In this document: positions 25,309-51,516 of the stretch, in pieces | Position numbering within the stretch: the first letter of the stretch is position 1 | How the letters are laid out: every line of letters starts with the position of its first letter | NCBI GenBank assembly: GCA_016841825.1 | Contig: JAENYK010000003.1 | Location: forward strand, 310,001-374,000 | Origin: Halothermothrix sp. | GTDB taxonomy: Bacteria; Bacillota; Halanaerobiia; DY22613 | DNA: 64,000 nt | Reading direction: 5' to 3' | Made by a program: the position numbers and the translations under genes | The notes under the pieces: generated by a model | Databases searched by the model: none | What the model saw: the letters and a program-made list of their open reading frames with translations, nothing else | Told to the model about the DNA's origin: nothing

Positions 25309-25330
25309 GTGAAAAAACTATTTAAACATA

Positions 25331-25458
25331 TTTCAGAAGGAAAATCTCCCAGCCTCTATAAGTAGGAGTATAAATAACTAAATCGGGTTACTTCAGTTGA
25401 GGTACAAATCCCCTTCTGAAGTCGTTAAACCTAAGCATTAACAGCTTGCTGTTAATGC
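25331..25458 (-). repeat. Dispersed structured repeat, copy A
   Basis: Read on the minus strand: a hairpin with perfect ten-base arms GCATTAACAG and CTGTTAATGC around CAAG (25458-25435), then GACTTCAGAAGGGG, ATTTGTACC, TCAACTGAAGT, TTTAGTTATTTATACTCC, TTATAGAGGCTGGGAG and CCTTCTGAA. The last nine bases are complementary to TTCAGAAGG at the front, and ACTTCAG can alternatively pair with CTGAAGT. It begins ten bases after the lipoprotein stop codon and matches copies B (43589-43713) and C (14975-15066). Confidence 0.8.
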
Positions 25459-25467
25459 GACTTTAAT

Positions 25468-43560: not shown

Positions 43561-43588
43561 TATTCATATATTTAGCTAATCAAAATCA

Positions 43589-43713
43589 CATTAACTGCAA
43601 GCTGTTAATGTTTGAATTTAATGACTTCAACAGAGAATTTACCCCCACCCAAATAAACACCATTTAGTTATTCACTCTACCTATAGAAGCTGAGAGACTT
43701 CACTTCTGAAATG
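43589..43713 (+). repeat. Dispersed structured repeat, copy B (overlaps the aminopeptidase 3' end)
   Basis: Starts with a hairpin CATTAAC...GTTAATG around CAAG (43589-43610), then GACTTCA, GAATTTACC, ATTTAGTTATTCACTCT, ACCTATAGAAGCTGAGAGACTT and CACTTCTGAAATG. It aligns along its length with copy A. Where A and C have CTCC/GGAG, B has CTCT/AGAG, a compensatory change. The last bases encode the final residues and stop codon of the M29 aminopeptidase on the other strand. Confidence 0.75.
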
Positions 43714-44815
43714 TCAATAAAAATTCACCATTTTCGTATATTAACTCATCTTCTGCGTAGATTTTGCCACCGTTTTTCATATTACATAGCATATCCCAAT
43801 GGATACCTGATTCATTCTTGCCGCCAGACTCTTTCGGGGCATCTCCCAGGGCAGCATGTACTGTTCCCCCAATCTTCTCATCAAACAACATATTTTTAGT
43901 AAACTTCTGTATCCCATAGTTTGTACCGATGGCAATCTCTCCCAAAACGCGTGAACCTTCATCAGTATCCAATAGAGCTAACAAAAGATCTTCACCTTTG
44001 GCAGCGGCAGCTTTGACCACTTTACCCTGGTGGAACTCCAAATAAATGTCTTCAATCTCCTTACCTGCATAAATCCCCGGAAAGCTAAATTGAATATGTC
44101 CTTCTACAGAATCTTCAACCGGACAGGTAAATACTTCACCATCCGGAAAATTCTCTCGACCATCACAATTAATCCAGGTTCTACCTGCAGTACTCAGCTT
44201 CAGATCAGTATCTTTAGAAATGATATGTAAACTCTTTTTAGTGTTTAAAAAATCGCAGATTTTCTGCTGCTTTTTGGAGATCTTCATCCATTCTTCAACC
44301 GGATCTTCCAGATTTAATAAACCGGCTCCATACACGAAATCTTCATATTCTTCCAAACTCATACTGGCCTCCTGTGCACTGGCATGAGTTGGAAATTGAG
44401 TTCCACACCATCTAAGACTTCCATCTGCCATCCTATTACTGAATTTGATTGAAAGATCCCGTAACGCTGCCCTTCTTTTCTGGATTAACTTAGGGTCAAC
44501 ATTGGAAAAAGCTTTCTCATTGTATCCACCCCAGATAGTCAAAAGAGCATCATAGTTGTCTGATTTAAATCTCTGCAATGGACTTTTATATACCAACTGT
44601 TCATCACTAGCTTCTTTCAGAAAAATCTCCGAAAGACCAGGGATAGCTATAAAAGTATCAACATATGCTCCCTGTTTTATCGCCTCACGATAGACCTCTT
44701 TAACCAGAGGTTGGGCGATGTCTGAAGCTTCGACACACAGATAATCACCTTTTTTTATTTTTAAAGAATAGTTCACTAATAGTTTTGCCAGGTTGACAAC
44801 TCTTTGATCAGCCAT
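43700..44815 (-). CDS. M29-family aminopeptidase (thermophilic metalloprotease)
   Basis: 371 residues of the AmpS/PepS/aminopeptidase T family. N-terminal VNLAKLLVNYSLKIKKGDYLCVEAS; metal-binding region with FPDGEVFTCPVEDSVEG (~225) and FSFPGIYAGKEIEDIYLEFHQGK; EIAIGTNYGIQKFTKNMLFDEKIGGTVHAALG (~300) and SGIHWDMLCNM (~345). The dinuclear site ligands (Glu, Glu, His, Tyr, His, Asp) appear present. GAGGAGG precedes the ATG. The last residues (LTFQK and stop) are encoded by repeat copy B, so the natural C terminus was probably altered slightly. Confidence 0.9.
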   Translation of the reverse strand: MADQRVVNLAKLLVNYSLKIKKGDYLCVEASDIAQPLVKEVYREAIKQGAYVDTFIAIPGLSEIFLKEASDEQLVYKSPLQRFKSDNYDALLTIWGGYNEKAFSNVDPKLIQKRRAALRDLSIKFSNRMADGSLRWCGTQFPTHASAQEASMSLEEYEDFVYGAGLLNLEDPVEEWMKISKKQQKICDFLNTKKSLHIISKDTDLKLSTAGRTWINCDGRENFPDGEVFTCPVEDSVEGHIQFSFPGIYAGKEIEDIYLEFHQGKVVKAAAAKGEDLLLALLDTDEGSRVLGEIAIGTNYGIQKFTKNMLFDEKIGGTVHAALGDAPKESGGKNESGIHWDMLCNMKNGGKIYAEDELIYENGEFLLTFQK

Positions 44816-51221: not shown

Positions 51222-51516
51222 TAAAAAATAAAAAATTCCCCTTCATCCTCAATAATCAGGACGAAAGAGAATTTATCTTCCGCGGTACCACCTTAATTCT
51301 GCTTCAAAATCAGTCATTACCAATCTTGACTCAGCCCTCATAGATATGTAACGGCTATCCGACCGATGAGATCTACTATCTTCAATCTCACAGCTCCCGA
51401 ACGACCTTCAATCACTTCCCACTAGAGACCTCCCAGCCTATGAGCCTCCTCTCTGAAGTGTTCCCTGATCTACTCCTCTCGATCATCACTTTTGTTAAAA
51501 GAAAATATCCAATTTA
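51222..51516 (-). promoter_or_regulatory. T-box leader (tRNA-Val) controlling acetyltransferase and valS
   Basis: The minus strand carries the T-box core AAGGTGGTACCGCGG (51294-51280), with a UGGU bulge suited to a tRNA with discriminator A. It is followed by a strong terminator (arms at 51273-51258 and 51249-51234) and a T-run. Stem I starts GAGAGGAGTAGAT (AGTA motif). The most likely specifier is GUC at 51405-51403 (followed by a purine), which fits valine and the downstream valS. Confidence 0.93.

Follow-up and report, generated by a model that had tools for sequence, protein, structure and literature searches.

The 64,000-nucleotide stretch of Halothermothrix sp. DNA analysed here (the window) contains three copies of a short, heavily base-paired repeat, and the question they raise is whether this repeat is a mobile element or a structured RNA. 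A preliminary description had offered both options. With a 30-copy covariance model, we recover copies A, B and C at cmsearch E-values of 6.9e-32, 3.5e-23 and 1.5e-13, respectively, while blastn with copy A as the sole query gives matches at 2.5e-21 and 8e-15. The three copies are thus homologous, as had been proposed. The loci originally given were also right, but they were too short: an alignment of 30 copies resolves a unit of ~146–148 bp, here called F1, that is bounded by TTAAA at either end (Table 1). In the orientation of copies B and C, its consensus is TTAAAGTCGCATTAACAGCAAGCTGTTAATGCCTTAAGTTTAACGACTTCAGAAGGGGATTTGTACCTCCACTGAAGTAAACACTATTTAGTTATTTATACTCCCACCTATAGAGGCTGGGAGACTTCCCTTCTGAAATGTCGTTAAA. 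The unit is non-coding and, at ~146 bp, too short for a transposase gene. The end of copy B (43700–43721) overlaps the final codons of a peptidase M29 gene on the minus strand (43700–44815; ORF list and Pfam), so the protein apparently takes its end from the F1 insertion. Two mutually exclusive pairings had been noted in copy A, and we find both: the ACTTCAG–CTGAAGT hairpin is common to a sister family, F2, and the long stem formed by TTCAGAAGG and CCTTCTGAA is specific to F1.

Table 1. Positions of F1 copies and their parts in the window, and of related elements elsewhere.
Feature	Position	Strand	Evidence or remark
F1 copy A, complete	25321–25466	minus (consensus orientation)	cmsearch 166.7 bits; 30-copy alignment; 120-copy boundary logos
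Copy A, ends on inferred mobile (top) strand	TTTAA 25321–25325; right-end TTTAA 25462–25466	plus	
Copy A, CAAG-loop hairpin GCATTAACAG/CTGTTAATGC	25435–25458		RNA and DNA folds; homologous to F2 terminal hairpin
Copy A, ACTTCAG...CTGAAGT hairpin, common to F2	25389–25422		F1–F2 alignment; F2 profile match 25347–25425, plus
Copy A, CTCCCAGCCTCTATAAGTAGGAG hairpin, common to F2	25347–25369		F2 profile match; F1–F2 alignment
F1 copy B, complete, more diverged	43580–43721	plus	cmsearch 124 bits
F1 copy C, CAAG-loop hairpin deleted, TTAAA 3' end degenerate	14953–about 15080	plus	cmsearch 76.9 bits
F2 loci in this genome	L096:4292–4409; L139:5683–5801; L174:7765–7883; about 20 more		
Core-only F1 relatives	C24:125.6k (L162:13164–13273); C25:22.9k (L163:9455–9563)		
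Third related element	L222, L221, L230, L238 (G189, G073); L262:1277–1450 (G104)		
Other tnpB remnants	C38:417289; C40:18432		degraded relative; fragment

The copy number of F1 is well above chance expectation. Of the 150 best candidates of the covariance model in this one 5.08-Mb genome, 149 have E < 0.005, which sets the number of copies at 149 or more, and a 151-base query alone matches 41 copies genome-wide; end patterns outside the 150 candidates suggest, by extrapolation, a total of about 170. The prospect that no further copies would turn up, raised in the preliminary description as a reason to abandon the family, is decisively contradicted, though only in this genome. F1 was found in none of the 100 relatives searched, nor in the single same-family genome or in 397 genomes drawn from the phylum (best seven candidates per genome, with some overlap with the 100 relatives).

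The mode of decay of these copies bears most directly on the RNA question. A structured RNA or cis-regulatory repeat maintained by selection would be consistent with the very stable fold of the F1 consensus (z of −7.2 as RNA and −7.8 as DNA relative to shuffles), with a slight surplus of paired and double-changed cells in the 30-copy alignment, which does not grow with more copies, and with the preference of F1 for gaps between co-directional gene pairs. Among 118 aligned copies, however, paired and unpaired positions differ from the consensus alike (15.7% and 16.8%). Pairing lies close to shuffled values in the terminal hairpin (0.848 vs. 0.838) and the outer stem (0.853 vs. 0.841) and within 2 s.d. 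of them in the remaining helices. The CTCC–GGAG to CTCT–AGAG change that had been presented as compensatory is indeed present in copy B, but double changes in that helix number 27 against 19.9 ± 3.3 in shuffled data (118 copies). Since this is only a little above the shuffled level in a family whose decay is mostly by G>A and C>T, the pair carries little weight. Furthermore, no Rfam family matches F1 above its curated threshold, a permissive threshold giving sub-threshold matches only, while the absence of F1 from relatives and its variable gene context also argue against a conserved RNA. The sole Rfam match in the window is a T-box leader on the minus strand at 51254–51495 (RF00230, 109 bits), which would point to a host in Bacillota.

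Because mutation is as fast at paired as at unpaired positions and covariation in F1 hardly exceeds, if at all, that of shuffled data, we conclude that F1 is not a maintained RNA. The structured-RNA option is left unsupported by the neutral decay and near-shuffled pairing of the 118 copies; we consider it very unlikely and largely refuted, and have dropped it. Divergence from the consensus averages 18%, with a single peak near 18% and a minimum of 8%, a pattern that suggests a single ancient burst of F1 and neutral decay thereafter. That F1 is a decayed mobile element is nearly certain.

What kind of element it is can be approached from its ends. Every complete copy has TTAAA at both ends, and nothing is conserved outside at either end. 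In logos of 120 copies complete at both ends, the borders are sharp, with conservation ending abruptly outside R-TTAAA at one border and TTAAA at the opposite one, such that units span from R/TTAAA to G/TTAAA (here and below, a slash before or after an end marks the border). The top strand is, we infer, the reverse complement of F1; on it, the boundary logos place TTTAA at the left and TTTAA/Y at the right, where TTTAA may be target or element. The termini then read [TTTAA]CGACATTTC... on the left and ...GCATTAACAGCTTGCTGTTAATGCGACTTTAA on the right, and the base 3' of the right end is a pyrimidine in 87% of cases, with further bases free. Palindromes lie near both termini in RNA and DNA folds, and the homologous F2 hairpins covary between genomes. 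In copy A, the CAAG-loop hairpin would be the right-end hairpin adjoining the cleavage site, and the CTCCCAGCCTCTATAAGTAGGAG hairpin would be the left-end hairpin of the top strand.

These properties recall IS200/IS605 transposons, which use a T-rich pentamer target without duplication, have no terminal inverted repeats (PMC4227781), and carry subterminal hairpins and insert into the lagging-strand template (PMC6006769). In Sulfolobus, IS605 elements have a TTTAA target and a TTCAC(T) right end (PMC11043419). F1 and F2 resemble such ends in the TTTAA of F1, the subterminal hairpins, the TTCAC/Y right end of F2 and, given the inferred top strand, perhaps the strand bias of F1, whereas F1 departs from them in having neither tnpA nor tnpB inside and in ending on the right with TTTAA rather than TTCAC. 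Target specificity in IS200/IS605 lies on the 5' and not the 3' side, and the pyrimidine preference just after the F1 right end speaks against the assignment. The assignment of F1 to IS200/IS605 is probable.

The same ends could also be those of a classical MITE mobilised by a DDE transposase, with TTAA or TTAAA duplicated, the long TTTAACGAC...AAGGG as the terminal repeat and the CAAG hairpin as a later addition. Like DDE MITEs, F1 is small and non-coding, has an AT-rich target and burst-like spread, is flanked by TTAAA at both ends and contains a near-perfect internal inverted repeat of ~20 bp. Two core-only relatives lack the CAAG hairpin and have symmetrical inverted repeats of ~20 bp bordered by TTAA; they are possibly a separate MITE-like subfamily, and on their account we keep a DDE MITE as a possible reading of F1, albeit an unlikely one. 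The ends of the full unit, however, are not inverted repeats, their alignment being matched by shuffled sequences (p about 0.5), and nearly all F1 copies carry the hairpin extension up to a sharp border. Changes in the two TTAAA of a copy look unshared in the 30-copy alignment, and a copy-specific target duplication is not recognised; TTAAA at both ends would suit a duplication as well as a fixed target. In addition, this reading predicts no strand bias, whereas F1 is biased 3:1, and the homologous F2 lacks inverted repeats and has unequal ends.

F2 was found on contig 2, where a degenerate F1 copy adjoins another repeat. It is a 116-bp family of three hairpins, TATATCTAAGTTCTATGACTCCCACTTCTATAAGTGGGAGCTGCCTTGTTCTACTTCAGGTGGGGTTGAATCCCCATCTGAAGCCCCGAAGTTCAGCTTTAGCTGAACGAGTTCAC/Y, with the right end GAGTTCAC/Y, a left pentamer of TTTAT or TATAT, and an even strand distribution (12:12). 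F2 is homologous to the reverse complement of F1 with the order kept from the first to the terminal hairpin (score of 62 vs. 19.4 ± 3.4 for shuffles, maximum 38), and its profile matches F1 copies on the opposite strand. The family is abundant here and in four other genomes (at least 18 copies each in G061, G104 and G169, and eight in G134), all from members of the phylum unrelated to this host. It is rare in a few further genomes of the phylum and gave no match in the single same-family genome, a patchiness that suggests horizontal movement. Across genomes, the F2 hairpins covary strongly, with 92.4% of cells paired vs. 86.6% in shuffled data and nine two-sided pair changes vs. 3.5. This covariation shows that the hairpins matter and fits single-stranded DNA hairpins as well as RNA; it would follow that the hairpins are under constraint during the mobile phase of the element and that dead copies drift afterwards. 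Among plasmids and phages, the sole match is a 28-base F2 stretch in a Calothrix plasmid, and exact-pattern scans found neither the F1 and F2 hairpins in genome contigs nor the F2 end in viral contigs. An F2 copy also adjoins a 1.2–1.3-kb segment that is 98–99% identical at three places (L211, L223 and L232, on C40, C42 and C43); its 314-aa ORF appears by eye to be Rpn-type (PD-(D/E)XK)-like.

A third related element is laid out as TTTATCC...CTCCCGCC hairpin...GGATAA...CTTCAGGTGG hairpin, and in G104 a similar element appears to follow a tnpB gene closely in opposite orientation. The hairpins 3' of this tnpB were considered as an F2 equivalent and dropped, since they seem to belong to a different small element of opposite orientation. 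A resemblance of the left end of the G104 tnpB element (L262) to F1 was likewise dropped, the scored comparison being at background; by our reading, this element ends GTGGGAGAGGTTCAC/T, in line with the right end of F2. It is conceivable, if rather doubtful, that F1, F2 and the G073-type elements form an unnamed superfamily of three-hairpin, single-strand-type elements that has reached high copy number in unrelated hosts of one phylum with no linked transposase, relying on a host or unknown enzyme instead of a resident IS200/IS605 transposase.

The placement of F1 in the genome provides further evidence on its movement. All scored copies lie outside called ORFs (163/163, in 1.22 Mb around copies), yet TTTAA sites are mostly genic. 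Of 157 copies, 117 have the top strand on the leading, G-rich sense (117:40, ~3:1, p = 6e-10), and target sites are slightly rarer on this favoured sense. The leading sense has the sequence of the lagging-strand template, and the bias is, given the top strand chosen above, in the sense expected for insertion into that template. The choice of top strand rests on the TTTAT and TTCAC ends of F2 and on the F1 strand bias itself, which counts only in part as independent evidence. The bias is also confounded with gene direction, since it drops to 28:17 outside the context of co-directional leading-sense genes, and F2 lacks such a bias (12:12). No empty paralogous site was found within 1.2 Mb, both junction-spanning matches being a copy against its own locus. 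A short palindrome at C2:358757–358831 (L106) consists of two F1 ends of the same type in inverted arrangement and resembles a snap-back product.

Single-stranded hairpins are also the substrate envisaged in two further alternatives. The first, which we consider quite unlikely, is that F1 is a REP/REPIN-like repeat spread with the same single-strand chemistry by a host-encoded, domesticated RAYT (TnpA-REP). The hairpins of F1 are, as in that system, high-copy, intergenic, species-specific and likely acted on while single-stranded, and Y1 genes of RAYT length (about 255–300 aa) occur in several F2-rich genomes. A GT[AG]G foot is described for REPs (PMC6006769), whereas the F1 consensus has no GTAG or GTGG hairpin foot. 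Moreover, the F1 unit is far longer and sharply bounded, a PF01797 search finds no RAYT in this genome, and F2 is not convincingly beside RAYT genes elsewhere, one weak partial match aside. The second, that F1 copies are minimal ORF-less integron-type cassettes, is extremely improbable. It would draw on GTTTAAC and GTTAAA, which we take to resemble the attC R'' and R' boxes, on their position beside a long hairpin, on a single-stranded fold that presumably resembles an attC site, and on units running from R/TTAAA to G/TTAAA. F1 copies are, however, mostly isolated, without arrays or cassette genes; five or six bases of their target are specified, and F2 has no such boxes.

We also sought a parent for F1. 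In this genome, no autonomous parent was found by left- and right-end patterns or by tnpA and tnpB families, nor did F1 and F2 profiles reveal one around the Y1 genes of nine and the TnpB genes of six other genomes. The PF01797 search finds only two IS200-type tnpA fragments here, neither with F1 ends. A non-autonomous element would not be expected to carry a Y1 gene between its ends, and hence the lack of one with F1 ends in this genome is not decisive. The resident IS605-type tnpB is intact (376 aa; L204:1462–2592, C22:430777 region) and lies beside a truncated tnpA; the right end of this element, read as CGCGACTTTAGTCGTGAGAGGTTCAA/G, differs from the F1 ends, and its hairpins show no relation to those of F1. 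In other genomes, F2 copies have no linked tnpA and no tnpB within 1.5 kb, and the Y1 genes of F2-bearing genomes are not flanked by F2. The left ends of F1 and F2 match no known IS left end above background. Of the options in the preliminary description, an IS200/IS605-like mobile element is the best supported, though its parent transposon was not found.

The closest parallel to F1 is provided by the PATEs of Haloquadratum walsbyi (PMC3119063), which are likewise short and non-coding, have near-end palindromes and no terminal inverted repeats, and occur at high copy in a host with broken tnpA genes; PATEs persist there while tnpA is a pseudogene (PMC3119063). As to the other features by which PATEs are recognised, flank conservation in F1 ends at TTAAA, as insertion without duplication would allow, and the F2 right end matches the general IS605 end TTCAC/Y, although the F1 palindromes show no relation to the resident tnpB element. 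F1 differs in its extra long internal inverted repeat and its bacterial host. We consider it reasonably likely that F1 is a non-autonomous, PATE-type, IS200/IS605-like element served by a transposase in trans, and it is apparently a previously undescribed family of a known element type, extinct in this genome. A Y1 (HUH) transposase acting in trans would recognise the terminal hairpins of F1 on single-stranded DNA and cut the strand after TTTAA at the left end and again after TTTAA at the right end, and the excised single strand would be inserted directly after another TTTAA of the lagging-strand template. This enzyme may later have been lost or may never have been encoded here, with the copies decaying since one old burst.

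F1 thereby accounts for at least 149 structured repeats between genes, which might otherwise be taken for a new family of RNAs. The contrast of neutral decay within one genome for F1 with covariation between genomes for its sister family F2 separates mobile DNA from RNA. Finally, the co-occurrence of high-copy IS605-like ends with only broken tnpA in this genome raises the question of what mobilises orphan elements.
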